Source of the DNA: Microvirga sp. 3-52 | GTDB lineage: Bacteria > Pseudomonadota > Alphaproteobacteria > Rhizobiales > Beijerinckiaceae | Reading direction: 5' to 3' | Assembly (NCBI RefSeq): GCF_018383585.1 | Contig: NZ_JAHAMK010000002.1 | Span: 235,396 to 299,395 of the forward strand | Length of the DNA: 64,000 bases | Part shown: piece by piece, positions 30,438 through 59,830 of the stretch | How positions within the stretch are numbered: position 1 is the stretch's first letter | Layout of the letters: the number at the start of each line of letters is the position of its first letter | The notes under the pieces: model-generated | What the model was told of the DNA's origin: nothing | Seen by the model: the letters and a program-made list of their open reading frames with translations, nothing else | Databases searched by the model: none | Program-made: the position numbers and the translations under genes

Positions 30438-30464
30438 CAATAACACCAACTTCGGATGAGACAT

Positions 30465-39859: not shown

Positions 39860-40771
39860 ATGCCAACGCAGCCATATTCCGCACGAAATGCATTCGCGTT
39901 GACCCGACGCAGCTTCCTTGGCGCCGCAATCGGCTCTTCCATCATCGGCAAGGTCCAAGCGAAACCCCACCGGCGGATTGCCGTCGTCGATTGGGCCATG
40001 TTCGAGACCTTACTCGCCTTGGACGTCGAGCCTGTTGCAGCCACGGAACTCGTACAGTTTCGAAAGATCGCGGTCGAACCGCATGTGCCGGCGCAGGTTG
40101 CCGATCTCGGTCTTCGCGGCTCGCCAAACTTCGAAATGCTGCGCCTCTCCAATCCCGATCTGATCATCAGCTCGCGCTGGTTTACATGGGCGCAGGACAA
40201 CCTCGAACAAATCGCTCCTGTCGTGTCCTATTCGGTCTACGAACCAGGTCGTCCCCCCTATGCCTCAGCCGCGCAGATCACCCTGGCCTTGGGAGAGCGT
40301 CTTGGACGCAAGCAGCGGGCGCAGGCGTATGTGGACATCTCATTTCTCGAGCTCGCGCAGGCTCGCCTGCGTGTCGCCGACAGGACGGCACGACCCGTTT
40401 TCCTGATCAATCTCGGCGACGCACGCCACTTCAGGGTCTTCGGCACCGACAGCATGTTCGGCGACGTTCTCCAGCGCCTCGGCTTCACGAATGCCTGGCC
40501 GAAAGCGACCAGCTACGCGGCGGCCGCTCCTATTCCCCTGGAAGCTCTCGCGGAAGTGCCCAAGGCATCGATCGTCATCATCTCTCCGGTTCCGCCGGAT
40601 GCGCGCAGCACCCTCGCGAATAGCCCATTGTGGAATGCCTTTCCGGCCGTTCGAGAAGGACGTGTCGCGACGCTGCCACCCGTAAACCCCTTCGGCGCAC
40701 TTCCCGCCGCAAGGCGTTTTGCGCGCGTGTTAACCGAAGCGCTCTTCGCCCTTGGAGAACCGAATGGTTAG
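39860..40771 (+). CDS. fhuD: Ferric hydroxamate-binding protein
   Basis: A 303-residue periplasmic binding protein of the FhuD/BtuF type (two lobes joined by a long helix). The Tat-type signal TRRSFLGAAIGSSIIG precedes HRRIAVVDWAMFETLLAL, which is the typical FhuD start. Later NPDLIISSRW and the C-terminal LPPVNPFGALPAARRFARVL also match. It delivers ferric hydroxamates to FhuB. Its end overlaps the fhuB start by 8 bases. The ribosome site at the chosen ATG is weak. Confidence 0.88.
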   Translation: MPTQPYSARNAFALTRRSFLGAAIGSSIIGKVQAKPHRRIAVVDWAMFETLLALDVEPVAATELVQFRKIAVEPHVPAQVADLGLRGSPNFEMLRLSNPDLIISSRWFTWAQDNLEQIAPVVSYSVYEPGRPPYASAAQITLALGERLGRKQRAQAYVDISFLELAQARLRVADRTARPVFLINLGDARHFRVFGTDSMFGDVLQRLGFTNAWPKATSYAAAAPIPLEALAEVPKASIVIISPVPPDARSTLANSPLWNAFPAVREGRVATLPPVNPFGALPAARRFARVLTEALFALGEPNG

Positions 40772-42731: not shown

Positions 42732-42748
42732 ATGGAGCACCATAGTCC

Positions 42749-43846
42749 ATGGAACAAACGATGAGATCACCCGTCCTTCGGGCCGAGGCGAGGGTCACAC
42801 TCGCAGGTCCCCTTCAGATGATGGACATGCTTTGCGATCATTTCATCGAACACGGCAGGGTGCATCGGTCCAATCGCTCCGCCCGAGTGGAGTTCGATTA
42901 TGGCGTTGCATCGGTCGAAGCGGATGACGAAACTCTCCACCTTCGTGCGGAGGGCACTGATGCTACGGGCCTCGCTTACGTCAAGTGGAGCCTTGCGGAG
43001 CATATTTTGGGTTTCGTGGAGGGCGAGACACCTCGCATCGTCTGGTCCGGCGATGGTGTTGCCGGAGCACCGCTCCCCTACTTCCGCGAAATGCGCGTGG
43101 TCAGCGCGACCAACATCACGCCACGCATGCGGAGGGTGAGGCTCAAGGGCGCGGATCTCGCGCGCTTTGCGGTCGGCGGCATGCATGTACGGCTCCTGTT
43201 TCCTCCGAAGCCCGGTGTCGTTCCACAATGGCCGGTGATGGGTGAGGACGGGCGGCCCGTCTGGTCGAAGGGAGCGGATCGGCCCGTGATGCGGATCTAT
43301 ACGATCCGCGAACTCGATTTGGAGAACGGCGAGATCGATATCGATTTCGTCCTGCACGAAGGCGACGATACGCCCGGCTCGACCTGGGCTCAACAGGCAT
43401 GCCCCGGGGATGTCGTCGGAGTGATGGGACCGGGCGGTGGCGACCTTCCGCCTGCCGACTGGTATCTATTTGCCGGCGACGAGACCGCGCTTCCGGCCAT
43501 CAGCCGCGTCCTGGCGGAACTCCCGGCCGAGTGCAAAGCAACCGTCCTGCTCGAGGTCGCAGATGCGAGCGAGGAGCAGCCTCTTCGCTCCGCCGCCGCG
43601 CTTGACATACGCTGGATGCACCGGAACGGGGCGCCGGCGGGAACGACGTCCCTGATCGAGGATGCGGTCCGCGGGATCACCATGCCATCGGACAAGACGC
43701 GTCGCTTCATCTGGGCCGGCTGCGAGCAGAAAAGCTGCCGATGCCTGAAGAAGCTCCTGCGCAAGGAGTGGAAGGTGCCGACCTCAGAGCATCAGGTCGT
43801 TGCCTATTGGCGTGCCGGCCATACGGCCGATCAGGTCGAGCATTGA
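42749..43846 (+). CDS. Siderophore-interacting protein with N-terminal DUF2218 domain
   Basis: A 365-residue cytoplasmic protein. Residues 1-100 form a DUF2218 domain (HFIEHGRVHRSNRSARVEFD). Residues about 105-360 are the FAD-binding/SIP reductase: FREMRVVSATNITPRMRRVR, the FAD site MRIYTIRELD, then the C-terminal NAD(P)H part ending in TSEHQVVAYWRAG. SIP proteins reduce ferric siderophores to release iron after import. It is the last gene of the fhuD-fhuB operon. The stop is followed 6 bases later by a strong hairpin. The function of DUF2218 is unknown to me. Confidence 0.88.
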   Translation: MEQTMRSPVLRAEARVTLAGPLQMMDMLCDHFIEHGRVHRSNRSARVEFDYGVASVEADDETLHLRAEGTDATGLAYVKWSLAEHILGFVEGETPRIVWSGDGVAGAPLPYFREMRVVSATNITPRMRRVRLKGADLARFAVGGMHVRLLFPPKPGVVPQWPVMGEDGRPVWSKGADRPVMRIYTIRELDLENGEIDIDFVLHEGDDTPGSTWAQQACPGDVVGVMGPGGGDLPPADWYLFAGDETALPAISRVLAELPAECKATVLLEVADASEEQPLRSAAALDIRWMHRNGAPAGTTSLIEDAVRGITMPSDKTRRFIWAGCEQKSCRCLKKLLRKEWKVPTSEHQVVAYWRAGHTADQVEH

Positions 43847-44079: not shown

Positions 44080-45603
44080 TTACGCTGCATACTTGCTGCG
44101 CAGATAGGCGAGGTAAGGAGCCGGATCGAGACGGCGTCCCGTTATCCGCTCCAGCAACTCGTCGCGCATGAACCGGCGACCGTGCTGCCAGACCTTCGTG
44201 CGCAGTTCTTCCGCCAGGACGGAATACTCGCCCGCAGTGATGGAAGCGTCGAGAGACGGCTTCTGCCTGCGCAGGGTCTCCATCAGTTGGGCGCCCATGA
44301 CATTTCCGATCGTGTAGGTCGGGAAGGAGCCGATATAACCGGTCGACCAATGTACATCCTGCAGGACGCCATACGCATCGTTCGGCACGGAGAGATCAAG
44401 ATCACGTTTGATCGCCGCATTCCAGGCTTCCGGCAAATCGTTCACGGCCAATGACCCGTCCATGAGCGCACATTCGATATCGACGCGCAGCATAATGTGG
44501 AGATCATAGGTGAGCTCATCCGCTTCGACACGGATGAAGCCCGGCTCGACGCGGGTGACGGCGCGATAGAATTCCTCCGCGCTCACATCGCCGAGCTGAT
44601 CCGGGAAATGCATCTGCAGCTCGGGGAAGTGAAGCTGCCAGAAGGTGCGGCTGCGGACGATGTGGTTCTCCCAGAGACGCGACTGGGATTCATGGGCGCC
44701 GAAGCTCGTACCGCCGACCGCGTAGAGACCGACCAGATCGGTGGCGAGCGTCGTGCGAGTGAAGGCCTGATCGACACCCTGCTCGTAGAGCCCATGCCCG
44801 GTCTCGTGCGCAGTGCCGAAGACGGATGCCGGAAGGTAATTGCGGTTGTAGCGAGTGGTGATGCGCACATCGTTGCGCGTGAACGACACCTCGAACGGAT
44901 GAACCGTGGTGTCCAGGCGTCCGCGCCGGAAATCGTAACCAAGTCTCTCCGCAAGGCTCAGGCCGAAGGCGCGCTGCCCCTCTTCAGGGAAGTCGCGGAA
45001 CAGGAAGTCCGAACGGGGCTGCGGCCGGGACCTCGCGTCATCGAGGATAGGCAGCAGGCCGGCCCGCAATTCCTTGAAAAGGTCTTTGAGGCTGGCCGCC
45101 GTTTCGCCCAGCTCGTAGATCGACACCATTGCGTCATAGGGATGCCCGTTCCAGCCGATGCAATCGGCATAGGCGCGAGACAATTCGACGGTCTTGGCAA
45201 GGAAGGACGAAAAGATCGAGAAATCGCTCTTCGAACGTGCCTCGATCCAGGCCGCCTGGGCGACGGTGCGAAGAGCCGCCCGCTCCTGGATCAGGGATGC
45301 CGGCACTCTCTTGTGATGTTCCACCGCATGCCGCGTCTGCTGCACCATGCGTCTCTCGGCAGAATCCTCCGCAAATTCCAGGACTGCCCGCTCGGCCTCC
45401 TCGAGCGCCCTCTCAGTCTCGGGCGCGAGAAGCAGATCGCGCGCGATGCGGGTCAGCGTCGCAATCTGGTGTCCGCGGGTTTCCGCTCCGCCGGCAGGCA
45501 TCATGGTGCGGGAATCCCATGTCAGGACGGAAGTTGCATTGAGCACATCATTGACGGCGGCGACGCGCTCTTGGAGCGCGACGAGAGATGCCTGCTGGGT
45601 CAT
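44080..45603 (-). CDS. M32-family carboxypeptidase (Taq type)
   Basis: A 507-residue zinc metallo-carboxypeptidase. HETGH at residues 266-270 holds the two His ligands and the catalytic Glu; the third ligand is in the segment after ESQSRLWEN (residue about 300). N-terminal TWDSRTMMPAGGAETRG is the usual family motif. It removes C-terminal residues from peptides in the cytoplasm. It is the last gene after a Dpp-type importer on the minus strand, so it probably trims imported peptides. It lies 18 bases after the ATPase gene. Confidence 0.92.
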   Translation of the reverse strand: MTQQASLVALQERVAAVNDVLNATSVLTWDSRTMMPAGGAETRGHQIATLTRIARDLLLAPETERALEEAERAVLEFAEDSAERRMVQQTRHAVEHHKRVPASLIQERAALRTVAQAAWIEARSKSDFSIFSSFLAKTVELSRAYADCIGWNGHPYDAMVSIYELGETAASLKDLFKELRAGLLPILDDARSRPQPRSDFLFRDFPEEGQRAFGLSLAERLGYDFRRGRLDTTVHPFEVSFTRNDVRITTRYNRNYLPASVFGTAHETGHGLYEQGVDQAFTRTTLATDLVGLYAVGGTSFGAHESQSRLWENHIVRSRTFWQLHFPELQMHFPDQLGDVSAEEFYRAVTRVEPGFIRVEADELTYDLHIMLRVDIECALMDGSLAVNDLPEAWNAAIKRDLDLSVPNDAYGVLQDVHWSTGYIGSFPTYTIGNVMGAQLMETLRRQKPSLDASITAGEYSVLAEELRTKVWQHGRRFMRDELLERITGRRLDPAPYLAYLRSKYAA

Positions 45604-45621
45604 GTCTGTCAGTCTTCCCGA

Positions 45622-47593
<1,972 letters not shown>

Positions 47594-47597
<4 letters not shown>

Positions 47598-48505
47598 CGG
47601 CTGCGCCTCGGGTTCAGAACGTTGCGAACCTGATCGCCGACGAGATTGATGGCGACGACCGTCAGCATCAGGGCGATGCCAGGATAGATCGAGATCCAGT
47701 AACGGCCCGACAGCAGGAACTGGAACCCGTTGGAGATCAGGCTCCCCAGCGAAGGCTGTGTGATGGGAAGTCCGAGCCCCAGGAAGGACAGCGTCGCTTC
47801 AAGGGCGATGGAGTTCGCCACCTGCACCGTCGCCACCACTATCAAGGGCGGCAGCGCATTGGGCAGAAGATGGCGAAACAGCACGTGGCGGGCCGGCAGT
47901 GGCGTGGAAAGTGCCGCCTCGATGTAGTCTTTGCGCCGTTCCGCACTAGCAGCACCATGGGTCGTGCGTGCGAAATAGGCATATTGCGCAGCCACGAGCG
48001 CGGCCACGAGCTGCATCAGCCCCTGCCCCAGCATGGCGACGAGAACCAGCGCAAGCAGGATCGCCGGCAGCGAGAGTTGCAGGTCTATGATGCGCATGAT
48101 GAGTGCCTCGATGCGACCACCATAATAGGCCGCAATGAGTCCGACCGACGTGCCGAGCACGAGTGCCAGGGATCCTGCCATGACGCCGACGATCAGGCTC
48201 GTACGCAATCCGTAAAGAATAGCCGAAAAGATGTCCCGCCCGGCGGCATCGGTACCAAGCCAGTGGGCATAACCGCCGGACCCGATCTCTCCAGGTTCCA
48301 AACGAGCATCGAACAGATCAAGGGTCTCCTGATTGTAGGGATCCTGCGGCGCCACGAAGGGCGCGAGAATAGCCATCAGAACCACGACGACGACAACGAT
48401 CAGAGCTGCGACGGCAACCGGGCTCTGGCGAAAATCCGTCCAGAAGTTCGAGAACCGAGTCCAGCTGGTCTCCGCCGGCAACGAGAGGGCGGGAGAATTG
48501 CTCAT
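47594..48505 (-). CDS. Dpp-type permease, DppC-like (second importer)
   Basis: A 303-residue inner-membrane permease. GTDAAGRDIFSAILYGLR is the DppC/OppC hallmark near residue 85, and about six spans follow. The start overlaps the DppB-like gene by 4 bases and the stop overlaps the DppD-like gene by 4, so the set is translated as a coupled block. A conserved N-terminal segment before the first span (FRQSPVAVAALIVVVVVVLM) is also typical. Confidence 0.9.
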
Positions 48506-49476
48506 GACGCCGCCTTTACGCGAATGCGCGGGTCGAGCTGGCCATAGACCAAGTCGACAACAAGATTGATCATAACGAAGAGGAACACCACGAGGATCAG
48601 GTATGCCACCATCACCGGCCGGTCGAGAACGGTGATTGAGTCGATGATGAGCTTACCCATGCCGGGCCAATTAAAGACCGTTTCCGTCACGACCGCGAAC
48701 GCGAGCGTCGAGCCAAGTTCCAAGCCGAAGACCGTCACGATCGGGATCGAGATGTTCTTGAGCACATGAAGGCCAACAACTTTGCTCTCGGACAACCCTT
48801 GTGCGCGGGCAAAGCGCACATAGTCGGAGCTCATCACCTCGACCGTGCCCGCACGCGTCAGGCGGATCAGCAAGCCGAGCTTGAACAGCGCGAGGTTGAA
48901 CGCCGGAAGAATAATGTAGCTCCAGCCCTCGAGCGAGGTGATCGACAGGTTCATGCCGAGCACCTGGGTGGTCGGCCCTCGCCCGCCCGATGGCAGCCAT
49001 CCGAGCTCGACCGCAAAAACCATGATGAGCAGAAGCCCGACCCAGAAGCTCGGCACGCTGAACCCAAGGACGGATAGGCCCATGATCGATTTGGCCGAAA
49101 GCGAATCGGGCTTGTAGCCAGCCCACAATCCCAGCGGGATGCCAAGGCAGGTGGCGATCAACATGGCTGTCAGCGCAAGTTCCAGGGTTGCCGGAAGACG
49201 CGACATGATCAGGTTGAGTACAGGCAGGCGATAGATGAACGATTGCCCGAGATCGCCATGCAGCATGTTGTTCATGAACACGAAATACTGCTCGATCAAG
49301 GGGCGATCGAAGCCGTAGCGCTGGATCAGCGCTTCGCGCAGGGCTTGGTCGGATCCCGGATCGATCATCACATCGATAGGATTGCCGATGGCATAGACGC
49401 CTAGGAACACGATGATCGACATCGCGATCACGACCATGATCGCTTGCAGGACACGCTGAATAAGAAAACCGATCAT
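48502..49476 (-). CDS. Dpp-type permease, DppB-like (second importer)
   Basis: A 324-residue inner-membrane permease with the N-terminus MIGFLIQRVLQAIMVVIAMS and about six spans. The ATPase-contact segment (VRFARAQGLSESKVVGLHVL) is present. ATG 49476 is chosen; upstream in-frame codons fall into the hairpin-bearing gap after the binding protein. It is preceded by two strong hairpins that likely reduce its expression relative to the binding protein. Confidence 0.9.
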   Translation of the reverse strand: MIGFLIQRVLQAIMVVIAMSIIVFLGVYAIGNPIDVMIDPGSDQALREALIQRYGFDRPLIEQYFVFMNNMLHGDLGQSFIYRLPVLNLIMSRLPATLELALTAMLIATCLGIPLGLWAGYKPDSLSAKSIMGLSVLGFSVPSFWVGLLLIMVFAVELGWLPSGGRGPTTQVLGMNLSITSLEGWSYIILPAFNLALFKLGLLIRLTRAGTVEVMSSDYVRFARAQGLSESKVVGLHVLKNISIPIVTVFGLELGSTLAFAVVTETVFNWPGMGKLIIDSITVLDRPVMVAYLILVVFLFVMINLVVDLVYGQLDPRIRVKAAS

Positions 49477-49499
49477 ACTGTCTCGTACTGGATGGGACA

Positions 49500-49533
49500 G
49501 CGAAGGATCAGGCAGACCTGCCTGATCCTTCGC
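49500..49533 (-). terminator. 15-bp hairpin between binding protein and permease genes
   Basis: GCGAAGGATCAGGCA and TGCCTGATCCTTCGC form a perfect 15-base-pair stem with a four-base loop. It is the second of two hairpins in the 141-base gap. No strong U-run follows, so attenuation by RNA processing or mRNA protection is more likely than full termination. Confidence 0.65.
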
Positions 49534-49582
49534 AAACAGCAGCAATCAAAAGGCCGGAGGGAAAGCCACTTCTCTCCACGAA

Positions 49583-49608
49583 GACCCAGCCGGGATCCCG
49601 GCTGGGTC
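49583..49608 (-). terminator. 26-base perfect palindrome after the binding-protein stop
   Basis: GACCCAGCCGGGA and TCCCGGCTGGGTC form an uninterrupted 26-base palindrome starting 9 bases after the binding-protein stop codon. As RNA it makes a stem of about 11 base pairs. Its position right after the binding-protein gene mirrors the hairpin at 28556-28583. Confidence 0.65.
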
Positions 49609-49617
49609 ATATCAAGA

Positions 49618-51198
49618 TCAGCTCTTCGGCTTGATCTCATAGGCCAGGGTTTCTTGGTCGACGCGCGGCGGAATGGTGACCATGCCCTTCTTGGCAGCCC
49701 AAACCGTCTGGATCTGTACAGTCGGGATCAGTGCACGGTCGTTCATGGAGACTTCCGTAACCTTTTCGAAGAGAGCGCGGCGCTTCGTATCGTCCATGGT
49801 GCGTGCGCCTTCCTGGAGCAGCTTGTCCACCTCCGGGTTCGAATAGCCCTGCTTGTTGAAGGCGCCGAGACCGATCTGCGGATTCGCCGTGTGCACGAGG
49901 GAGCCGTAGGTGTAGCTCGCCTCGCCGGTCAGCGTGCCCCAGCCGCTCATCCAGAGTGAGAATTCACCCTTCTGCTGTGCCGGGAAGAACACGGTGCCGT
50001 TGAGCGCATTGGCATTCACCTTCAGGCCGGCACGGGCCCACATCTGCGAGAGCGCCTCGCACACTGCCCCGTCGCCCGGCAGGCGATTGTTGGTGCAGTG
50101 GAAGTCTATTTCGAAGCCCTTCGGGTAGCCGGCATCGGTCAGCAACTGCTTCGCCTTGGCGAGATCGTAGGGCCGCTCTGGCAGGTTCTTGTTTCCGCCG
50201 AAGAAGCTGGCGGGCATAAGCTGGTTGGCCGGGCGGCCAAGGCCTTCGAGAACCACGCGCACGAGCGTCTTACGGTCGATGGCGAGGTCCATGGCCTCGC
50301 GGACCTTTGGATCGCGCAGCGGGTTCGCCTCGATCTCCTTGCCGTCGATCTTCACCTTCTTCGGGAGGGTTTCCTTCACGTTGGGCGTGATGTTCAGGAA
50401 GTAGACTGAGTCGGCCACGAAAGTGTCGACGGACTTGTCCTTCTGCATCGCAGCATAGTCCGTGGCCGGCACATAGTTGGCAAGATCGACCTGGCCGGAC
50501 TTCAGCGCCGCCATGCGAGCCGGGTCGCTCGGAATCTCCTTGCGGATCACCTTCTGCCAAGGCTGCTTCTCGCCCCAATATCCATCGAAGCGCTCAAGGA
50601 CGAGATCACCCTTCGGCTCCCATGAGACGAACTTGTACGGGCCAGTGCCGATGGCGGCTTTGCCCGAGTTGAACTGCTCGTTGCGGGCTTCCATGCCGAC
50701 GGATTTCGACACCACGAAGAGGCGGATGAAATCATTCGGCAGGGTCGGTGCGGGCGACTTCGTCTTCACGTGCAAGGTGTACTTGTCGGCGACCTTTGTC
50801 TCCGCAACCTGCTTCGTATAGATGGTCATGCTCATGGGGCCGGTAACCACCGGGATGCGGTCGATTGAGAACTTCGCGTCCTCGGCCGTCAACTCCGACC
50901 CGTCGTGAAATTTCACGCCTTCCCGGATCTTGAACTCCCAGGTCGTATCGTCGATCGGCTTCCATGAGGTTGCAAGACCGGGCTTGAGTCCCAGGTTGTC
51001 ATCCGACATCACGAGCGTATCGTAGATATGGCGCAGGGCCTCCGCCTGACTGCCGAGCGTCGACCAATGCGGATCGATCGAGTCTGGACCGGCCCGAAGA
51101 CCCATGGTCAGGGTCTGTGCGGAAACTGATCCGCCGAATACTGTTCCGAGGACGAGAGCTGCGACGAGCGATCCACCAAGCTTGAAGTTTTGTTTCAC
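49618..51198 (-). CDS. Dpp/Opp-family periplasmic binding protein (second importer)
   Basis: A 526-residue family 5 binding protein. The signal peptide (KLGGSLVAALVLGTVFGGS, then VSAQT) is followed by LTMGLRAGPDSIDPHWST. It starts at GTG 51198 with AGAGGGG upstream. It is the first gene of the minus-strand importer operon and diverges from the GntR regulator. Family members bind peptides and a range of other solutes. The divergent peptidases and amide hydrolases suggest a peptide or modified amino acid amide; that is inference. Confidence 0.9.
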   Translation of the reverse strand: MKQNFKLGGSLVAALVLGTVFGGSVSAQTLTMGLRAGPDSIDPHWSTLGSQAEALRHIYDTLVMSDDNLGLKPGLATSWKPIDDTTWEFKIREGVKFHDGSELTAEDAKFSIDRIPVVTGPMSMTIYTKQVAETKVADKYTLHVKTKSPAPTLPNDFIRLFVVSKSVGMEARNEQFNSGKAAIGTGPYKFVSWEPKGDLVLERFDGYWGEKQPWQKVIRKEIPSDPARMAALKSGQVDLANYVPATDYAAMQKDKSVDTFVADSVYFLNITPNVKETLPKKVKIDGKEIEANPLRDPKVREAMDLAIDRKTLVRVVLEGLGRPANQLMPASFFGGNKNLPERPYDLAKAKQLLTDAGYPKGFEIDFHCTNNRLPGDGAVCEALSQMWARAGLKVNANALNGTVFFPAQQKGEFSLWMSGWGTLTGEASYTYGSLVHTANPQIGLGAFNKQGYSNPEVDKLLQEGARTMDDTKRRALFEKVTEVSMNDRALIPTVQIQTVWAAKKGMVTIPPRVDQETLAYEIKPKS

Positions 51199-51241
51199 TT
51201 CACTTCCCCTCTTGCTAAGACCCTGGCTTTTCGTCCAAGGT

Positions 51242-51287
51242 GTTCTTATCGATTAGAACGGTAGGTCACTCGGTTAAGAAAAGTCAA
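51242..51287. promoter_or_regulatory. Operator and promoter in the divergent GntR/importer region
   Basis: GTTCTTATCGATTAGAAC (51242-51259) is an 18-base dyad that is symmetric at 16 positions. On the minus strand TTGACT (51287-51282) and TACCGT (51263-51258) are spaced by 18 bases, a candidate promoter for the binding-protein operon, and its -10 box overlaps the dyad. The regulator encoded from 51295 is the obvious candidate to bind. Confidence 0.5.
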
Positions 51288-51294
51288 CAGAGCC

Positions 51295-52371
51295 TTGCCC
51301 AAACCTCAATCAAGCCCTGATGCATATGAAGGCATCCGTTATAGCGACACGGAACAGACGCCGGATGAGCGCATCCTCGCCAACCTCGCGGGAGCGCTTG
51401 ACCGTTCTCTTCCGGTGCCGCTTGGCATCCAGCTTCGCGGTTTGATCGAATTCGGCATCGCTCTCGGCGAGTTGCCGACTGGTCAGCGTCTGCCCTCGGT
51501 CCGGGAACTGGCGGAACGGGCCGGGATTGCGCACATGACTGTTGCAACAGTTTACCGGGATTTACGTGAGGCCGGGCTCATCGAGGCGAAACCGGGTGCC
51601 GGCACTTATGTCGGCGATGGGCACAACAGCGACGGGCTGCGCTCGTCCGCGATCCGTAAGATCCAGCGCAGAATCGAGATGCTCTTCACTGAGGCCCGGC
51701 AACTCGGCCTCCCACCCTCCGTCGTGTCGTCACTGGTGAACGCGCGAGCCGCCCGCGGTCCGACGCCGACTCGGCCCCTGCGCCTCGTCATGGTGGGCAA
51801 TTTCGTCGAGACAACCCAGCAATACGCCAACAGGATCCAGGATTATCTTGGCACCGGCGACACCATCGCGGTGACGACGGTAGACGCCCTGCATGCCGGC
51901 GAGATCTTCCCTCTGCCCTGCGATATCTGCGTCACCCTCGCTCACCGGCGCGGCGAAGTCGAACATCTGATCCCTAACGGCATTCCGGTCGTTGGCCTGA
52001 GCTTCATTCCGGCGGAGGAGACGCGGGCGCAGCTTGCCATGATCGATCCCATGGCGCGCATCGGCATCGTGTCGATCTTTCCGGAATTCACTGCCCTGAT
52101 GAAGCCCGGCGTACTGCGCTTCGCGCCTCACGTTTCCGATGTGGATGTGCGCCTCATCACGGCACCCGACCTGGAGGCTTTTCTGTCCCAGATCGATGTG
52201 GCGATCTATGCCAGCGGCGCGGAAGCAACGGTCCGACGGATGTTGCCAGAGAATCGCCAAGCCATGGAGTTCCGCTATATGCCGGATCCCCATGCCATTC
52301 GCGCCACGCTGCTCCCCGTGATCGAGCGGCTGCGCTCATCCCTTGTTTCACAAGAGGAAGTCTCTTCATGA
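51295..52371 (+). CDS. GntR-family regulator with an unusual C-terminal sensor domain
   Basis: A protein of up to 358 residues. Residues about 45-105 form a GntR winged helix (LPSVRELAERAGIAHMTVAT, wing KPGAGTYVG). The C-terminal 230 residues do not look like FCD, UTRA or aminotransferase domains. They alternate beta-alpha segments (LRLVMVGNFVETTQQYANRI, MARIGIVSIFPEF, QIDVAIYASG) like a two-lobed periplasmic-binding or LacI-type sensor. No ATG fits; TTG 51295 is the best start, with a weak ribosome site, so the N-terminus is uncertain. It heads the enzyme operon and diverges from the importer, so it likely senses the imported compound. Confidence 0.75.
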   Translation: MPKPQSSPDAYEGIRYSDTEQTPDERILANLAGALDRSLPVPLGIQLRGLIEFGIALGELPTGQRLPSVRELAERAGIAHMTVATVYRDLREAGLIEAKPGAGTYVGDGHNSDGLRSSAIRKIQRRIEMLFTEARQLGLPPSVVSSLVNARAARGPTPTRPLRLVMVGNFVETTQQYANRIQDYLGTGDTIAVTTVDALHAGEIFPLPCDICVTLAHRRGEVEHLIPNGIPVVGLSFIPAEETRAQLAMIDPMARIGIVSIFPEFTALMKPGVLRFAPHVSDVDVRLITAPDLEAFLSQIDVAIYASGAEATVRRMLPENRQAMEFRYMPDPHAIRATLLPVIERLRSSLVSQEEVSS

Positions 52372-53066
52372 GAATCAGTGAGATGAACTGGCTTCAGGTC
52401 GAAGAATACCTGAAGACGGATGACCGTGCGGTTGTTCCGCTCGGCTGCACCGAGCAGCACGCTTACCTCAGCCTGTCCGTCGACAGCATCCTGGCGGAAC
52501 GCGTGGCTTCCGAAGCAGCCGAACCGACAGGAGTCCTGGTCTTCCCCGTCCAGGCCTACGGCATCACGCCCTACTTCATGGCTTATCCGGGAACCATTTC
52601 GCTGAAAGCGGACACCTATCTGCGCATCATCACCGACATCCTCGATTCCTTGAGGCGCACGGGCTTTCGCCGGATCCTCTTCGTCAATGGTCACGGCGGG
52701 AACACACCCGGCCAGACCGCCGCCATCGAATGGATGGGGGAGAATCCGGACTGCCGGGCGAAATTCCACAACTGGTGGAATGCCCCGCGCACGTTCGAGA
52801 AGGTGAAGCAGATCGACCCGATCGCCTCCCATGCCTCGTGGATGGAAAACTTCCCCTGGACGCGTCTCCCGGGTATCGAGCAACCGTCTCACCAGAAGCC
52901 GATGGTCGATCTGGAGCGCATGCGCACGTTCGGTCCGCAAGGCGTTCGCGAGATCCTGCAGGACGGTAATTTCGGCGGCTATTTCCAGCGCTCCGATGAC
53001 GACATGAATGCCATCTGGACCGTTGCGATCGAAGAAACCCGCGCGCTAATCGAGAACTGGCAATGA
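52368..53066 (+). CDS. Creatininase-family amide hydrolase
   Basis: A 232-residue protein of the creatininase family, zinc/manganese enzymes that open cyclic amides (creatinine) or hydrolyse formamides. Likely metal ligands are Glu29, His31 and Asp39 in PLGCTEQHAYLSLSVDS and His109 in NGHGGN. In creatininase the stretch after EQH is usually GPHLP; here it is AYLSL, so substrate differs. Overlaps the regulator stop by 4 bases and the next gene by 4. Reaction unknown; position among peptidases suggests opening of a cyclic amide or imide. Confidence 0.85.
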   Translation: MRISEMNWLQVEEYLKTDDRAVVPLGCTEQHAYLSLSVDSILAERVASEAAEPTGVLVFPVQAYGITPYFMAYPGTISLKADTYLRIITDILDSLRRTGFRRILFVNGHGGNTPGQTAAIEWMGENPDCRAKFHNWWNAPRTFEKVKQIDPIASHASWMENFPWTRLPGIEQPSHQKPMVDLERMRTFGPQGVREILQDGNFGGYFQRSDDDMNAIWTVAIEETRALIENWQ

Positions 53067-54079
53067 ACGAGAACACCATTCTGATCTGGGGGGCGGGCGC
53101 CATCGGCGGAACCCTCGGCGCCTATCTTGCCCGTGCGGGTGAAGAGGTGCTGTTCGTCGACGTCGTCGAGCCGCACGTGGAGGCCATGAAGCGGGACGGT
53201 ATTTTTATTGAGGGGCCGGTCGAGACGTTTCAGCAATCGGTCAAGGCTGCGCTGCCAAGTGAGGTCAAGGGCCAGTTCAAGCGCATCATCCTGGCCGTCA
53301 AAGCTCACCATACCCGCGATGCGGTATGCGCCCTGAAGCCGCATCTGACCGGGAACGGCACCATTCTCTCCGCACAGAACGGATTGAACGAAATCGTCAT
53401 TGCCGAGGAAGTCGGTGCCGAGCGCACCGTCGGCTGCTTCGTCAATTTCGGTGCAGACTGGCTGGAGCCTGGCCGCATTCTTTTCGGCAACCGGGCAGCC
53501 GTCGCGGTCGGCGGACTCGACGGGCAAGCTACGGATGCGGTGCACGATTACCATCGCCTGCTGTCGATCTTCGAGCCGAAGGCCGTGCTGACCGATAACA
53601 TCTGGGGCTATCTCTGGGGCAAGCTCGGTTACGGCTCGCTGCTTTTCGCAACGGCGCTGACCAATGCCTCCATGTCCGAGAACCTTGCCTCCGAGCGTCA
53701 CTTTCCGGTCTATCACCGTCTTGGCCAGGAAGTGATGGCGGTAGCGAAAGCCCGTGGCGTGAAGCCCTTGGGTTTCAACGGATTCGATCCGGATGCCTTC
53801 TTGCCGGGTGCCGATGAGACCTCCGCGCGGCGCTCCGTCGCCGACATGGCCGAGTTCAACCGGCACACGGCCAAGACCCATTCCGGCATCTGGCGCGATC
53901 TTGCCGTGCGCAAGCGCAAGACGGAAGTCGATGCACAGATCGCCATTATCGCAAACCTCGGCAGTGAGGCCGGAATCCCGACACCTGCTATCAGCAGGTT
54001 GGTCCAGCTGATCCACGACATCGAGGATGGACGGCGCGAACAATCCTGGTCCACCCTCGACGAGATGCTGAAGCTATGA
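53063..54079 (+). CDS. 2-dehydropantoate 2-reductase-family (PanE/ApbA) oxidoreductase
   Basis: A 338-residue NADP-dependent reductase-like protein. The Rossmann motif GAGAIGGTLGAYLARAGEEV opens the protein, and the C-terminal helical domain (KLGYGSLLFATALTNAS) carries the family Lys. True PanE makes pantoate, but homologues in catabolic clusters act on other 2-keto or 2-hydroxy acids. Overlaps on both sides by 4 bases show tight coupling. In this cluster it probably oxidises or reduces an alpha-hydroxy/keto acid released from the imported substrate. Confidence 0.82.
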   Translation: MNENTILIWGAGAIGGTLGAYLARAGEEVLFVDVVEPHVEAMKRDGIFIEGPVETFQQSVKAALPSEVKGQFKRIILAVKAHHTRDAVCALKPHLTGNGTILSAQNGLNEIVIAEEVGAERTVGCFVNFGADWLEPGRILFGNRAAVAVGGLDGQATDAVHDYHRLLSIFEPKAVLTDNIWGYLWGKLGYGSLLFATALTNASMSENLASERHFPVYHRLGQEVMAVAKARGVKPLGFNGFDPDAFLPGADETSARRSVADMAEFNRHTAKTHSGIWRDLAVRKRKTEVDAQIAIIANLGSEAGIPTPAISRLVQLIHDIEDGRREQSWSTLDEMLKL

Positions 54080-54831
54080 ATCTGGATTTTACCAACCGCC
54101 GTGTTGCCGTGACCGGGGCGGCGCAGGGAATCGGCCGGACTATTGTTCAATCCCTAATGGAAGAAGGTGCCCATGTTTGGGCCCTCGATATGGACGAGGC
54201 CGGTCTGCGTGTCGCGACAGAGGCAGGAGCCAGAGCGACCCGCACTCTCGATCTTGCGGATCGTGCCGCAGTCGGCCGCGTCTTCGACGAGATGGCGGCT
54301 AGCCTCGGCGGCATCGACATCCTCGTCAATTGCGCCGGCGGCGTTCGTGGACAAGTGGCGAAGCCGATCGAGGAGGTGAGCGAAAAGGACTGGCTTGTTC
54401 TCTTCGAGGCCAACGTGCATGGCGCATTCTGGTGCTCGCAGGCCGTGGCCCCGCATATGAAGCGCCAGAAGTTTGGCCGGATCGTGAATATTTCGTCCGG
54501 AGCAGGCCTGCGTCCGAGCCTGACGGGCATTCAGGCCTATACGGCCTCGAAGCATGCCCTCGTCGGGCTGACGAAGCAGCTCAGTTTCGAACTCGGCCCC
54601 TATGGCATTACCGTCAACAGCGTCGCTCCCGGCTTCGTGCTGTCGAACCCCGCGACGCAGCGCCAATGGGAGAGCTACGGCCCCGAAGGCCAAGCGCGTC
54701 TGGTTGAGAGCATTCATACACGGCGCCTGGGCTATCCGCAGGACATAGCCAATGCCGTCATGTTCCTGACCTCCGATGCAGCGGGCTGGATCTCCGGGCA
54801 GATCATCTCTGCGGATGGCGGGCGCTCCTGA
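54076..54831 (+). CDS. Short-chain dehydrogenase/reductase (FabG-like)
   Basis: A 251-residue classical SDR. Cofactor motif TGAAQGIGRT near residue 14, NCAGG, catalytic Ser in NISSGAG, and YTASKHALVGL with catalytic Tyr and Lys. C-terminal GWISGQIISADGGRS is the standard ending. The acidic residue after the second strand (ALDMDEAG) suggests NAD preference. The substrate is not predictable; it is co-transcribed with amide hydrolases and a PanE-like reductase, so a hydroxy acid is plausible. Confidence 0.87.
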   Translation: MNLDFTNRRVAVTGAAQGIGRTIVQSLMEEGAHVWALDMDEAGLRVATEAGARATRTLDLADRAAVGRVFDEMAASLGGIDILVNCAGGVRGQVAKPIEEVSEKDWLVLFEANVHGAFWCSQAVAPHMKRQKFGRIVNISSGAGLRPSLTGIQAYTASKHALVGLTKQLSFELGPYGITVNSVAPGFVLSNPATQRQWESYGPEGQARLVESIHTRRLGYPQDIANAVMFLTSDAAGWISGQIISADGGRS

Positions 54832-54878
54832 AGTCAGGATCGGGCAGGCAGATTTTCAAGCAAAGAGCTGGAGGAATC

Positions 54879-55775
54879 ATGGACGACATCAGCAGCCAAC
54901 CCTGGCATTGGGACGAACAGACTTGGCGCGGCAAGGTGGATCACGTGCGCGCCGGCCGCTCCCTGAAGCCCGCCAGATGGAAGAATGGTGCCCGCTGCGC
55001 CGTCGCCCTCTCCTTTGATTCCGACCATGAGACGAACGAGTTGCGCGATGGCGGCAAATCCATCGGCCGCATGTCTCAGGGGCAATACGGCAACCGCCAG
55101 GGCGTACCGCGGATTCTCAACGCGCTTGCTAAATATGACGCCAAGGCGACGTTCTTCGTCCCCGCCGTCGCCGCCCTCCTCTACGAGGACGAGCAGCGCC
55201 GGGTTGTTGCGGAAGGCCACGAGATCGGCATTCACGGCTGGATCCACGAGCTCAACAGCCAGCTGCCCTACGAGATTGAACGCGATCTGATGTTCCGCTC
55301 GGCGGATACACTGGAGCGAATCACGGGTGTGCGGCCTGTCGGTCTGCGAACCCCGTCCTGGGATTTCAGCCCCAGTACGCTGCGCATCGAGCGCGAACTC
55401 GGCCTCCTCTACGATTCATCGCTCATGGCAGACGATGACCCTTACGAATTGCTGGAACAGGGCGAGCCCACCGGCATCGTTGAGCTTCCAGTGGAATGGA
55501 TCCGCGACGATGCGGTTTATTTCAACATGCACCGCTTCAACGGTCTGCGCCCCCACACTCCGCCGACGGCCGTTTTTGACATCTTCTTCCGCGAATTCGA
55601 GCGAGCTTGCGAGGAAGGCGGCCTCTTCCTGCTCACGATGCATCCACACGTGACCGGCTACCGCTCGCGCATCTGGATCCTCGAGAAGCTTCTGGAGGAG
55701 ATCACCCGGCGCTCGGATGTCTGGATCGCGACCCATGCGGAGATCGCCGCCTTCGTGAAGGCGGAATGCCCCTGA
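54879..55775 (+). CDS. Polysaccharide-deacetylase-family hydrolase (PgdA/cyclic imide hydrolase-like)
   Basis: A 298-residue protein of the NodB-fold group that includes Helicobacter PgdA and bacterial cyclic imide hydrolases. Asp47 and Asp49 in SFDSDHE and His119/His123 in HGWIHE form the expected metal site and base. There is no signal peptide, so a cell-wall target is unlikely and a soluble cytoplasmic amide or imide is more so. GGAGG precedes the ATG. The downstream P1 peptidase starts one base into its stop. Imidase activity is inference from family and context. Confidence 0.83.
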   Translation: MDDISSQPWHWDEQTWRGKVDHVRAGRSLKPARWKNGARCAVALSFDSDHETNELRDGGKSIGRMSQGQYGNRQGVPRILNALAKYDAKATFFVPAVAALLYEDEQRRVVAEGHEIGIHGWIHELNSQLPYEIERDLMFRSADTLERITGVRPVGLRTPSWDFSPSTLRIERELGLLYDSSLMADDDPYELLEQGEPTGIVELPVEWIRDDAVYFNMHRFNGLRPHTPPTAVFDIFFREFERACEEGGLFLLTMHPHVTGYRSRIWILEKLLEEITRRSDVWIATHAEIAAFVKAECP

Positions 55776-56830
55776 TGAGCCGCCCTCCCCGCGCCCGGGA
55801 TGCCGGCTTCGCCTGCGGCAGCCTGCCGACAGGTGTGCTCAACAGCATCGCCGATGTGCCTGGCGTGCGCGTTGGGCACCGCACGCTCATTGATGGCGAC
55901 ATCCGAACCGGGGTGACCGCCATTGTACCGCACGGCGGCAATCTCTATCGTGAAAAGCCGATTGCCGCCCTTCATGTTCTGAACGGTTTCGGCAAAAGTG
56001 CGGGACTGGTGCAGGTAGAGGAGTTGGGAACCCTCGAGACGCCTATCCTCCTCACCAACACACTCTCGGTTGGAACCTGCTGCACCGCGCTAGTGCATCA
56101 CGCCATCGAGGGCAATCCGGATATCGGCCGCGAAACGGCGACCGTGAACCCGGTCGTGTTGGAGTGCAACGATGGATACCTGAACGACATTCAGGCTCTG
56201 GCCGTCACGGAAGCGGACGGACGCGCCGCTTTGGCGCGCGCTTCATCGCAGTTCGAATCTGGTTCCGTAGGTGCCGGCTGTGGGATGAGCACCTTCGGCT
56301 TCAAGGGCGGGATCGGCACGTCCTCCCGTCGGCTCGTTCTCGACGGGCAGTGCTTTCACTTGGGAGTGCTCGTCTTGTCGAATTTCGGTCGCTCGGGCGA
56401 CCTGCGCCTTCCCAATGGCAGAATCGTTGCGCCTTCGAAAGCCGCCATGGACGAGGAAGCACTTGAGAAAGGCTCCATCATCATTATCGCGGCCACGGAC
56501 ATTCCCCTGAGCGATCGGCAGCTCAAACGAGTCATTCGGCGCTCCGGTGTCGGATTGGCACGATTGGGCGCCCTATGGGGCCATGGCAGCGGCGACATCG
56601 CACTCGGCTTTACCACTGCCAACATCCTGTTTCATGACGAGAAGGCAGATCTCGTCGATCTTCGAATCATCAACGAGAACCGCATCGATCTCCTCTTCGA
56701 GGCCATGGCCGATGCTACGCAGGAGGCCGTTCTCGATGCACTTGCCGCTGCAGGCTCGATGACAGGTCGTGATGGTCATCACCGTCCGAGCGTCTTTGAA
56801 GCTCTGAAATCTCTCTCACCCGAAACGTGA
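55775..56830 (+). CDS. P1-family (DmpA-like) aminopeptidase
   Basis: A 351-residue self-processing Ntn-like hydrolase of the DmpA/BapA group, which cleaves N-terminal D- or beta-amino acids and amides. The expected autoproteolysis site is between Gly233 and Ser234 in EKGSIIIIAATDIPL, freeing Ser234 as nucleophile. VPGVRVGHRTLIDG and GAGCGMSTFGFKGGIGTSSR are the conserved alpha-chain motifs. No signal peptide. ATG 55775 overlaps the preceding stop (TGATG). It sits with an isoaspartyl peptidase, so non-standard peptide bonds are a common theme of this operon. Confidence 0.9.
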   Translation: MSRPPRARDAGFACGSLPTGVLNSIADVPGVRVGHRTLIDGDIRTGVTAIVPHGGNLYREKPIAALHVLNGFGKSAGLVQVEELGTLETPILLTNTLSVGTCCTALVHHAIEGNPDIGRETATVNPVVLECNDGYLNDIQALAVTEADGRAALARASSQFESGSVGAGCGMSTFGFKGGIGTSSRRLVLDGQCFHLGVLVLSNFGRSGDLRLPNGRIVAPSKAAMDEEALEKGSIIIIAATDIPLSDRQLKRVIRRSGVGLARLGALWGHGSGDIALGFTTANILFHDEKADLVDLRIINENRIDLLFEAMADATQEAVLDALAAAGSMTGRDGHHRPSVFEALKSLSPET

Positions 56831-57810
56831 ATCCCATGACCGGCAACAAGACCTCTGACAACAGTTTCGCCCTCGCGATCCATGGCGGGGCAGGCACCAT
56901 CCTGCGCAGCAAAATGACGCCCGAACGGGAGGCCGCCTATCATGCTGGCCTGCGCCGTGCCCTTGATGCTGGGCGCGTCGTCCTGGCCGATGGCGCAAGC
57001 GCGCTCGATGCAGTGTCGGCAGCGGTCATGGCACTCGAGGACGAGCCGCTCTTCAACGCCGGGCGTGGCGCAGTCTATACCTCGGCCGGCAAGCAGGAGA
57101 TGGATGCTGCCGTCATGGACGGACGTGACCGCTCGGCCGGAGCCGTCGCCGGCATCTGCGGCCCGCGCAATCCGGTCCTTGCCGCCCGCGCCGTGATGGA
57201 GCATTCGGGCCACGTGATCCTCATCGGCGAAAGCGCTCTAGAATTCTGCCGCAGGCATGGCCTCGCTTTCGAGGATCCGTCCTACTTCTATACCGAGCAG
57301 CGCTGGAACGCTTTGCAGGAAACGCTCGCCATGCGCAAAAGCGGCGCGGACGATCATGACGAGTCGCGCAAGCATGGCACGGTCGGCGCGGTAGCCCGCG
57401 ACAGACATGGCAATCTTGCCGCCGCTACGTCCACAGGTGGCATGACTGCGAAATCGCCTGGACGCGTCGGCGACAGTCCCGTGATAGGTGCGGGGACATG
57501 GGCCGACAACGAGACCTGCGCCATCTCGGCAACGGGTCACGGCGAGATCTTCATCCGCTATGCGGCGGCTCATGAGATCGCCTCCCGCATGCGCTATGCA
57601 GGCCAGTCTTTGGAAGAAGCGTCACGTGCCGTCGTGATCGACATGCTGGCTCCTGCCGGAGGCTCCGGTGGTGTCATCGCAGTCGATCATGCGGGCAACG
57701 TGTCCCTGCCCTTCAACTGCTCGGGCATGTATCGCGGCGTGGTCAGAGGTGACGGCAGGCTGCTGACTGCGATCTATGACGAGCCGCTCGTCGACTTTCG
57801 GAACACATAG
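56827..57810 (+). CDS. Isoaspartyl peptidase / L-asparaginase (plant type)
   Basis: A 327-residue Ntn hydrolase. Thr185 in KHGTVGAVA is the autoproteolysis site and nucleophile; AIHGGAGTI near the N-terminus and FNAGRGAVYT are family motifs, and TGHGEIFIR matches the beta-chain. It hydrolyses isoaspartyl dipeptides and asparagine. The GTG start at 56827 overlaps the previous stop; ATG 56836 is an alternative. It closes the six-gene operon. Isoaspartyl bonds arise from aspartimide ring opening, which would fit the imide and amide hydrolases upstream. Confidence 0.9.
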   Translation: MNPMTGNKTSDNSFALAIHGGAGTILRSKMTPEREAAYHAGLRRALDAGRVVLADGASALDAVSAAVMALEDEPLFNAGRGAVYTSAGKQEMDAAVMDGRDRSAGAVAGICGPRNPVLAARAVMEHSGHVILIGESALEFCRRHGLAFEDPSYFYTEQRWNALQETLAMRKSGADDHDESRKHGTVGAVARDRHGNLAAATSTGGMTAKSPGRVGDSPVIGAGTWADNETCAISATGHGEIFIRYAAAHEIASRMRYAGQSLEEASRAVVIDMLAPAGGSGGVIAVDHAGNVSLPFNCSGMYRGVVRGDGRLLTAIYDEPLVDFRNT

Positions 57811-57898
57811 GAGAAAGATTGCTTCTGGAGAAATGAGGCATTGAACAGGGGCGGGCATGGATGAATGATTGTGCGTTCTAGACAAGGGAGAGCGTATC

Positions 57899-58855
57899 GT
57901 GACCTCGAACTATGCCTCAGCAGCAGCTTTTCTCGCCAGCACTCTCGTCTCATCGTACGCCTGCGCGCAGCAGCCGCTCCAACAGCAGACCGGGCTCTGG
58001 TCTGTTTACGAACAAAGTATCAAGGGTGCCAAACATATCGACCTCACTCACGCCTTTGCACCGGTTCAGCCGGTCTGGCCGGGCTTCGGGCACGCGGAGT
58101 TCAAGGCCACGACGGCGGGGGCCGATATCCCGAATTATGTCGCGAAGGGTGACGAGTACACGTATGCCAAGCACGGTTTCGTCGCCACGAGTTACCTGCT
58201 CACCACGGACCAGTATGGTACGCAACTCGATCCACCGGCCCATTGGGACGAGTACGGCGCAACGATCAGCGACCTTCCCGCGACATACGCAGTCCGTCCA
58301 CTTGCGGTGATTCCGATCCATGAAAAGGTGGCCGCGGATCCGGGCTATCACCTGAGTGTCCAGGACATCCGGGATTGGGAGACCCAAAACGGGCAAATTC
58401 CTGAAGGCGCGGTCGTCATGGTCCGCTCGGATTGGTACAAGGGCTGGAACGACCCGGTCCGCTTCGCGAGCAAGCCGCATCCGGGCGTCGGCCTCGATGC
58501 TCTCAAATTCCTGCATCTCGAGCGCAAGATCCTCCTTCACGGGCACGAGCCTCTCGACACGGATACGACACCGACTCTCGAAGGCGAGTCCTGGCTTCTG
58601 CACAATCACTTCACTCAGGCGGAGGGTGTCGCCAATCTCGACAAGGTCCCCGAGACCGGAGCCCTGATCTCCATCGGCTTCGCCAAGCCTCTTGGCGGCA
58701 CAGGTGGCTACGCCCGCTATGTGGCTATCGCTCCGGCCGAGTGGCCGCATGGCGTGACGGTTGCCGAGGCACCTGGCGCACCGTTGCCGAAGCAATCGGC
58801 TCCCCTGCGCCGCGACGACAAAGGGGTGATGCGCCCAGAAGCCGGTGCAAAGTAA
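57899..58855 (+). CDS. Exported cyclase-family protein (kynurenine formamidase-like fold)
   Basis: A 318-residue protein of the cyclase/KynB metal-dependent family. The N-terminus (AAAFLASTLVSSYACAQQ) is a signal peptide, so it acts in the periplasm or outside. The metal motif that is HxGTHxD in KynB reads QYGTQLDPPAHW here, so one His is Gln; a second cluster LLHGHEPLDTDTT also differs. GTG 57899 follows AAGGGAGAG and gives a good signal peptide. It lies 88 bases after the isoaspartyl peptidase gene. Activity may be lost or changed. Confidence 0.8.
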   Translation: MTSNYASAAAFLASTLVSSYACAQQPLQQQTGLWSVYEQSIKGAKHIDLTHAFAPVQPVWPGFGHAEFKATTAGADIPNYVAKGDEYTYAKHGFVATSYLLTTDQYGTQLDPPAHWDEYGATISDLPATYAVRPLAVIPIHEKVAADPGYHLSVQDIRDWETQNGQIPEGAVVMVRSDWYKGWNDPVRFASKPHPGVGLDALKFLHLERKILLHGHEPLDTDTTPTLEGESWLLHNHFTQAEGVANLDKVPETGALISIGFAKPLGGTGGYARYVAIAPAEWPHGVTVAEAPGAPLPKQSAPLRRDDKGVMRPEAGAK

Positions 58856-58975: not shown

Positions 58976-59830
58976 ATGTCACTCAACGATACTCCCGTTT
59001 GGTTCATCACGGGCTGCTCGACCGGATTCGGACGTGAACTCGCGCAACTGGTGCTGCGACGGGGCTGGCGCGCCGTGGTGACAGCGCGCGATGCCAATCG
59101 CGTAGAAGACCTGACTCGCGGCCATGAGGAGAATGCGCTGGCCCTGTCGCTCGATGTCACCAAGCATGATGACATCGTCGCGGCCGTCAAAGAGTCCGAG
59201 ACCCGTTTCGGTGCCATCGACGTGCTCGTGAACAATGCCGGGTACGGATACCAAGCGTCCATCGAGGAAGGCGACGACGCGGAGATCCGCGCCCAATTCG
59301 AGACGAATGTCTTCGGTCTTGCGGCCATGACCCGCGCAGTCCTTCCCGGCATGCGGTCCCGTCGTCGCGGGCATATCGTCAACATCTCGTCGCAGGCCGG
59401 CTTCATCGGCTATCCAGGTTCAGGTTATTATGCTGCGACCAAGCATGCGGTGGAGGGCCTGTCGGACGCACTCTCCAAGGAGGTCGCGCCGCTCGGCATC
59501 AAGGTGACCTGCGTCGAGCCCGGTCCGTTCCGCACCGATTGGGCAGGGCGTTCCCTCCAGCAGCGTCGCCCGGCAATTGCTGACTACCAGGATACCGTCG
59601 GCGCCCGCCTCGAAACGACAGCCAACTACAGCGGCAGGCAGCCGGGGGATCCTGTTCGGGCAGCGGAGGCGATCATAAAGGCTGTCGAAGCGAACGATCC
59701 GCCCAAGCATCTGGTTCTGGGTGCCATTGCGCTCGACGGAGTTCGTGAGAAGCTCAAGGAAACGCTTGCAGAGGTCGAAGCTTGGGCGGAGACAAGCCGA
59801 GGAGCGGACTATCCGGAAGGCGCGCAGTAG
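58976..59830 (+). CDS. Short-chain dehydrogenase/reductase
   Basis: A 284-residue classical SDR. The cofactor motif TGCSTGFGRE starts near residue 12, followed by NNAGYG, NISSQAG and the catalytic YYAATKHAVEGL. AGAGGA lies upstream of ATG 58976. The longer C-terminal part fits the oxidoreductase group often annotated for ketones and steroids, and gives no substrate. It is preceded by a hairpin at 58864-58890, so it is likely an independent unit. Confidence 0.87.
   Translation: MSLNDTPVWFITGCSTGFGRELAQLVLRRGWRAVVTARDANRVEDLTRGHEENALALSLDVTKHDDIVAAVKESETRFGAIDVLVNNAGYGYQASIEEGDDAEIRAQFETNVFGLAAMTRAVLPGMRSRRRGHIVNISSQAGFIGYPGSGYYAATKHAVEGLSDALSKEVAPLGIKVTCVEPGPFRTDWAGRSLQQRRPAIADYQDTVGARLETTANYSGRQPGDPVRAAEAIIKAVEANDPPKHLVLGAIALDGVREKLKETLAEVEAWAETSRGADYPEGAQ

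Follow-up and report, generated by a model that had tools for sequence, protein, structure and literature searches.

A divergent regulon of 13 genes in Microvirga sp. 3-52, at positions 44080-57810 of the 64,000-nucleotide stretch analysed here (the window), joins a Dpp-type importer to amide and peptide hydrolases and two oxidoreductases, and resembles several described systems in part. In the iaaA-gsiABCD unit of E. coli, according to the available part of its description, a homologue of the isoaspartyl peptidase IaaA is likewise paired with an importer of the Dpp family that takes up an iso-linked peptide (PMC10355420). The binding proteins of both systems lack the aspartate at position 408 of E. 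coli DppA (Leu in the regulon, Ser in GsiB), but the regulon protein scores 170.4 bits against the GsiB equivalog model, whose cut-off is 594. To our knowledge, the E. coli unit comprises no creatininase, PanE, short-chain dehydrogenase (SDR), NodB-type hydrolase (PDA) or M32 carboxypeptidase. Cyanophycin utilisation loci, as far as the accessible part of PMC10206079 describes them, combine cyanophycinase, an isoaspartyl dipeptidase and a transporter; the regulon shares the pairing of isoaspartyl peptidase and transporter, but holds no cyanophycinase among its 13 genes and differs in its other enzymes. The fungal nicotinate pathway works alike in that the SDR HxnW, the HpPgdA-related imidase HxnM and the amidase HxnN lead to a 2-hydroxy acid, but the available part of that source describes no importer, creatininase, PanE or peptidases, and the likeness is drawn at the level of function (PMC9304392).

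We read the regulon as one locally regulated catabolic unit for N-blocked, cyclised or iso-linked peptide-like compounds, in which PanE and the SDR would act on an oxygenated part of the substrate, and put the probability of this reading at roughly 55%. It draws on the gene content and its conservation, on catalytic-type residues, on an altered binding-protein pocket and on an operator-like dyad between the two arms. We found no description of this gene set in the open-access literature, which is weak evidence, with most papers in subscription journals outside the search; the proposal of an import-and-hydrolysis regulon without prior description, made in a first-pass annotation from the DNA letters, is nonetheless well supported.

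Gene content and borders of the regulon

All 13 open frames have clear family matches (Table 1), which confirms the divergent 13-gene regulon of the first-pass annotation. Six genes run leftward (M32 carboxypeptidase, DppF, DppD, DppC, DppB and DppA) and seven rightward (GntR, the creatininase homologue, PanE/ApbA, SDR, PDA, S58/DmpA and IaaA). Four-base overlaps, said there to tie most of the genes, occur at 6 of the 12 junctions (one of the 12 being the divergent gap), so that "most" becomes about half; PDA and DmpA overlap by one base, with DmpA starting at ATG 55775, and 47 bases separate SDR and PDA.

The creatininase homologue was found at 83-96% identity in 26 of the 36 Microvirga congeners searched, the other 10 having no such gene. 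From the 26 holders (at least 83% identity) we drew 17 regions, along with three outgroup regions, and all 17 carry the 13 genes in identical order, with M32 truncated by the contig end in one (L038); some of these 17 share genomes with the 12 named Microvirga loci of the wider scan described below. The genes beyond IaaA vary, with a cyclase in 2 of 17 and a second SDR in 8 of 17, and the borders of the regulon therefore appear real rather than arbitrary. An extension to the downstream cyclase (PF04199, putative; 57869-58855, directly after IaaA) and SDR (58976-59830) was rejected on these counts.

Conservation beyond the genus

In a scan of named genomes we took the best 80 of at least 554 loci, from Alpha-, Beta- and Gammaproteobacteria, with identity thresholds for gene calls chosen in this analysis. 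Sixty-one of the 80 have flanks of at least 9 kb on the left and 3.5 kb on the right (19 were set aside), and 50 of these lie outside Microvirga. In 41 of the 50, PanE is accompanied by the creatininase homologue, the SDR and four or more Dpp genes. Counted singly over the same 50 loci, creatininase and SDR occur in 46 each, DppA in 42, PDA and IaaA in 32 each, a MarR regulator in 22, a GntR regulator in 17, M32 in 16 and an M20 dipeptidase in 4, while DmpA, missing from 49 and present in 1, is almost confined to Microvirga. The annotated set is thus kept together elsewhere, in full within Microvirga and for the most part beyond it, DmpA excepted. What stays constant across clusters is the importer together with creatininase, PanE and SDR, the last two adjacent in nearly every cluster. 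Gene order varies, with one divergent arrangement of GntR type and two or more of MarR type, among which the content persists; content therefore outlives order.

The remaining members vary in a patterned way. IaaA and M20 do not co-occur in any of the 50 (32 loci with IaaA, 4 with M20, 14 with neither), M32 tracks the GntR regulator (16 with both, 1 with GntR alone, none with M32 alone), and PDA and IaaA tend to occur together (26 with both, 12 with neither, 6 and 6 with one; Fisher p 0.0016, uncorrected for kinship). Every variable enzyme scanned in creatininase-bearing clusters belongs to a family of amide or peptide hydrolases (M20, amidase, AstE type, PDA, IaaA, DmpA and M32), the exceptions being RraA and extra SDRs.

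In an order-level draw of 397 genomes, the PanE subfamily (expect value, E, at most 1e-60) was found in 32, own genome included. We sampled 31 of its 34 outside places, the rest being one locus already in the set (L049) and two weak matches (41% and 36%), and creatininase lies nearby in 22 of the 31. The M20 family recurs in 11 of 33 clustered loci, an assignment taken from one scanned member. Among 299 genomes drawn across the phylum, only 5, own genome included, hold the creatininase subfamily at E 1e-50, so the cluster is scattered and not universal.

Plasmids carry it as well. PanE occurs in 28 of 72,556 plasmid records, 9 of them from Deinococcus, and we viewed 11 plasmid regions, two of which lack gene annotation. 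Five Deinococcus plasmids hold, by annotation, importer, GntR, creatininase, PanE, M32, dipeptidase and SDR; the D. deserti dipeptidase is M20 by scan, the others being dipeptidases by annotation. An RraA-family gene accompanies three of these five clusters (the D. deserti copy at L197 10023-10652, the other two by annotation) and hints at a hydroxy-oxo acid intermediate. Sagittula p7 bears the Microvirga set minus DmpA, and Octadecabacter a MarR form with dipeptidase. Carriers include soil and sea isolates, and the spread over Alpha-, Beta- and Gammaproteobacteria and Deinococcus suggests that the compound is probably not rare.

Binding protein of the importer

Asp408 of E. coli DppA, which we take to hold the alpha-amino group of the dipeptide, aligns to Leu423 of the regulon DppA. 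Over 67 cluster homologues this column is Leu in 62, Ile in 4 and Gly in 1, within a nearly invariant WGTLTGEA motif; the position is Ala in 5u4o, the nearest solved relative by sequence. Arg372, adjoining the position of DppA Arg355, presumably a carboxylate ligand, is kept in 67 of 67. Leucine in place of Asp408 together with the invariant arginine argues, at the level of sequence, for a carboxylated ligand that would lack a normal dipeptide amino end. The protein scores 140.2 bits against the DppA equivalog (cut-off 1005).

Constant enzymes: creatininase homologue, PanE and SDR

The creatininase homologue belongs to the PF02633 superfamily, and its model (mean predicted local distance difference test, pLDDT, 92.4) superimposes at a template-modelling score (TM) of about 0.8 on 3no4 and on creatininases; by sequence and by model fold, its nearest solved relatives are named creatinine amidohydrolases. 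Residues E29, H31, D39, H109, H155 and E160, to which we assign metal roles, are conserved in 70 of 70 homologues. Like creatininase, MftE and IolN it thus has the fold and metal-type residues of the family, but it falls far short of the three equivalog cut-offs: 77 bits against 235 for creatininase proper (TIGR04448), 63.1 of 172 for MftE and 68.2 of 245 for IolN. Creatinine use as the sole reading was rejected, the score being so far under the creatininase cut-off.

The PanE homologue passes the cut-off of its subfamily (TIGR00745; 145.8 bits, cut-off 141.35) and keeps Lys187, Asn106 and Glu288 in 79 of 79. Four residues past the catalytic Lys, where solved PanE 5hws has an Asn that we assume to be an active-site residue, Gly191 is present in 79 of 79. 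The acid handled by this PanE therefore probably differs from ketopantoate, and we judge pantoate use unlikely although the subfamily cut-off is passed. Two relatives stand in other surroundings: one of 64% identity (L143 1933-17693), of the same subfamily in a different context, among hydantoinase/oxoprolinase, M20, lactonase and phenylacetate-type genes, and one of 48% (L110 9612-16971) by genes for a flavin mononucleotide (FMN) oxidoreductase, a P450, a coenzyme A (CoA) ligase and a hydroxyacyl-CoA dehydrogenase. For the SDR, no solved relative was found at E 1e-45. Mean column identity, computed over differing row sets, is highest for PDA (76%, 22 rows), followed by PanE (66%), creatininase (65%), IaaA (57%) and GntR (54%).

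Variable hydrolases: PDA, IaaA, DmpA and M32

The best solved relatives of PDA are 3rxz and 3qbu (HpPgdA), then 3s6o and PuuE, a group that includes small-ring hydrolases, and its metal-type residues are intact in 48 of 48 cluster homologues. It nevertheless lies far under the PuuE allantoinase cut-off (TIGR03212; 71.8 bits against 424.6), and its likeness to imidases goes through HpPgdA and PuuE; on that resemblance it may be called imidase-like, a putative cyclic imidase. Fungal HxnM, proposed to open a glutarimide ring, resembles HpPgdA and a bacterial cyclic imide hydrolase, according to the available part of PMC9304392.

In IaaA, sites were mapped by a constant offset from the RhIaaA residues given in the accessible part of PMC10206079: T185, T203, R213, D216, T236 and G237 are kept in 42 of 42 cluster homologues, and the S217 column is Ser in 28 and Thr in 14. 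The NF007589 equivalog model gives 333.7 bits (cut-off 567). In the S58/DmpA protein, Ser234, an N-terminal nucleophile position after Gly and presumably the nucleophile itself, is present in 13 of 13, and the HExxH of M32 in 28 of 28 cluster homologues.

A dyad between the two arms

Between the arms lies a 20-bp dyad (51241-51260) built of TGTT and two bases, a spacer and a six-base arm. It scores at least 5/6 in 19 of 27 distinct GntR-type intergenic regions and below that in 8 (the Microvirga sequences in this sample are close relatives and not independent), against a mean of 0.63 and a maximum of 4 in 200 base shuffles. Searched genome-wide with up to 3 mismatches allowed, a 25-base pattern spanning the dyad has a single occurrence. 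Kept across loci and unique in the genome, the dyad suggests that a local regulator controls both arms, and the GntR protein would be the one to bind it. Residues 120-358 of that protein (C-terminal sensor domain; 51652-52371), searched with the window's copy, have no Pfam match, and its model matches folds in the PDB clearly for the DNA-binding part only; a glutamate racemase fold for the sensor domain, weakly matched (TM 0.23 and 0.30, rank 50), was not used. A sigma-70-type promoter scan of 51100-51400 found none, and Rfam at gathering scores gave no match in 40000-64000.

Proposed route and competing explanations

Most simply, an unusual peptide-like compound would be imported, its parts would be released by whichever hydrolase the lineage has, and an oxygenated acid would undergo redox conversion. 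On the reading that we prefer, the Dpp-type importer would take up peptide-like compounds that are N-blocked, cyclised or beta-carboxyl-linked and have no ordinary dipeptide amino end; once these are inside the cell, M32, the imidase-like PDA and the creatininase homologue may trim them or open ring amides; IaaA (or M20 in some other lineages, with DmpA added in Microvirga) would cut the remaining amide to yield aspartate or a similar amino acid; and the hydroxy or oxo acid left over would pass to PanE and the SDR for oxidation or reduction. The GntR protein would respond to substrate or product at the inter-arm dyad. Conserved catabolic operons that lack an assigned substrate show where environmental carbon and nitrogen metabolism is incompletely mapped, and here a direct screen for the substrate is feasible, as the enzymes are individually purifiable and the regulator usable as a reporter.

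Several observations weigh against this reading. The 80 named loci, being the closest of at least 554, are biased towards the full set, and at the thresholds used 5 of them hold only creatininase, PanE and SDR and 3 only PanE; over the 50 well-flanked outside loci, PDA is missing from 18, IaaA likewise from 18, and neither IaaA nor M20 is seen in 14. Nine of the 31 order-level PanE regions, all with PanE at 43-54% identity, have no creatininase nearby, and in an outgroup locus (L048) a creatininase of 64% identity lies by diverged Dpp genes, with PanE absent. Two plasmids count against a fixed set: in Neorhizobium pNgVX, PanE and SDR lie by iron uptake genes with no creatininase listed, and in Roseomonas PanE adjoins a binding protein without creatininase. 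The survey of variable enzymes covers part of the recurring neighbour families. Creatininase homologues also perform non-amide chemistry, as IolN does. In the available part of PMC3084791, HpPgdA is inactive on every compound tested, allantoin included.

The first-pass annotation had gone further, to a chain in which an aspartimide is opened to an isoaspartyl bond that IaaA then cleaves, with beta- or D-residues set free by the DmpA-like peptidase. The co-occurrence of PDA and IaaA favours such an imide-to-isoaspartyl step, as do the small-ring hydrolases among the relatives of PDA and the Asp-binding residues of IaaA, invariant in its homologues; the chain is weakened by the absence of each enzyme from a good third of the outside loci, and it gives the creatininase-PanE-SDR core no defined place. 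On a more far-reaching version, a dedicated and so far undescribed pathway of Proteobacteria, reduced in Deinococcota, would import cyclic-imide or isoaspartyl (aspartimide-derived) peptides, PDA and creatininase would open the ring, IaaA or M20 cut the iso-bond, and PanE and SDR finish a 2-hydroxy or 2-oxo acid. We hold this version to be unlikely; if true, it would let bacteria feed on aspartimide peptides that arise by spontaneous damage or are made on ribosomes.

Among alternatives, the one that survives best sets out from that same core: creatininase, PanE and SDR would degrade one compound that is not a peptide, for instance an oxygenated ring or a sugar-like acid, and the peptidases would only free the moiety from amide conjugates. 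The model is the IolN route, in which a diketone is cut by a creatininase-like hydrolase with dehydrogenases on either side, and the constancy of the three genes, which stand alone in the five loci noted above, would suit such chemistry, as would the RraA-like genes of Deinococcus and the PanE relatives found with P450, FMN oxidoreductase and CoA ligase genes at one locus and with hydantoinase/oxoprolinase at another. The IolN profile does match, if well below its cut-off. Against this, the nearest solved relatives of our protein are named creatinine amidohydrolases, and in more than one phylum the core comes with a Dpp-type importer and with several peptidases; we regard this explanation as unlikely, though a serious competitor.

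That promiscuous enzymes here scavenge beta-aspartyl dipeptides derived from cyanophycin or damaged proteins, with the remaining genes as accessories, seems to us quite improbable. The regulon does hold the only IaaA match in the genome, where no IadA was found above cut-off, and cyanophycin synthetase lies next to cyanophycinase on another contig (L205 3675-7492); this IaaA may have a secondary part in turning over cyanophycin. The solved relative RhIaaA cuts beta-Asp dipeptides without apparent preference (PMC10206079), and E. coli pairs iaaA with a glutathione importer of the Dpp family (PMC10355420), both as given in the available parts of these sources. Beta-Asp-Arg, however, requires neither creatininase, PanE nor SDR, many clusters have no IaaA, none of the 13 genes is a cyanophycinase, and two AstE/AspA homologues elsewhere in the genome could serve cyanophycin.

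An ordinary peptide-nutrition operon, with general peptidases collected around a Dpp-type importer and the two oxidoreductases as unrelated passengers, would fit the breadth of the M32, M20 and DmpA families but is very unlikely, given that the adjacent PanE and SDR belong to the constant core, that the binding protein lacks the dipeptide-amine Asp and that the dyad is single in the genome.

Features and neighbouring genes

Table 1. Features of the regulon, in window coordinates.
Feature	Position	Strand	Remarks
M32 carboxypeptidase (carboxypeptidase Taq family)	44080..45603	-	PF02074 577.5 bits; HETGH at residue 266
DppF-like ATPase	45622..46653	-	ABC_tran and oligo_HPY
DppD-like ATPase	46578..47597	-	ABC_tran and oligo_HPY
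DppC-like permease	47594..48505	-	BPD_transp_1, OppC_N
DppB-like permease	48502..49545	-	BPD_transp_1
DppA-like substrate-binding protein, family 5	49618..51198	-	PF00496; Leu423 at place of E. coli DppA Asp408; Arg372 invariant
20-bp dyad, probable operator of divergent promoters	51241..51260	no strand	TGTTCT-N8-AGAACG here; often TGTTAY-N8-RTAACA in other genera
GntR-type regulator	51295..52371	+	PF00392; C-terminal putative sensor domain; model mean pLDDT 80.4
Creatininase-family metallohydrolase	52368..53066	+	PF02633 144.7 bits (cut-off 31.3); model TM about 0.8 to creatininases
PanE/ApbA-family oxidoreductase	53063..54079	+	distinct subfamily, invariant Gly191
Short-chain dehydrogenase (SDR)	54076..54831	+	YxxxK at 155
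NodB-type hydrolase (PDA)	54879..55775	+	nearest 3rxz, HpPgdA, PuuE; metal-type residues Asp47/49, His119, His123
S58 (DmpA-like) aminopeptidase	55775..56830	+	PF03576 373 bits (cut-off 23.9); Ser234 at nucleophile position
Isoaspartyl peptidase / plant-type asparaginase (IaaA)	56827..57810	+	PF01112 356.8 bits; matches to 2zak and 8dqm; Thr185 nucleophile

Adjoining the regulon, a siderophore uptake locus (37099-43846) encodes a TonB-dependent receptor, a periplasmic binding protein, a FecCD permease and a siderophore-interacting protein; a siderophore role for the regulon was dropped, as these neighbours recur in one of the 17 congeners only (L034; L038 ends inside M32 and is uninformative). 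A gamma-glutamyltranspeptidase gene, another iso-peptide enzyme, lies about 12 kb from the regulon (30456-32258). Elsewhere in the window, 60464-62077 encodes a protein with RTX-type calcium-binding nonapeptide repeats, and 12979-21460, with a molybdopterin oxidoreductase, a flavoprotein of nitrite/sulphite reductase type and an NMT1-like binding protein, resembles a nitrate assimilation locus.

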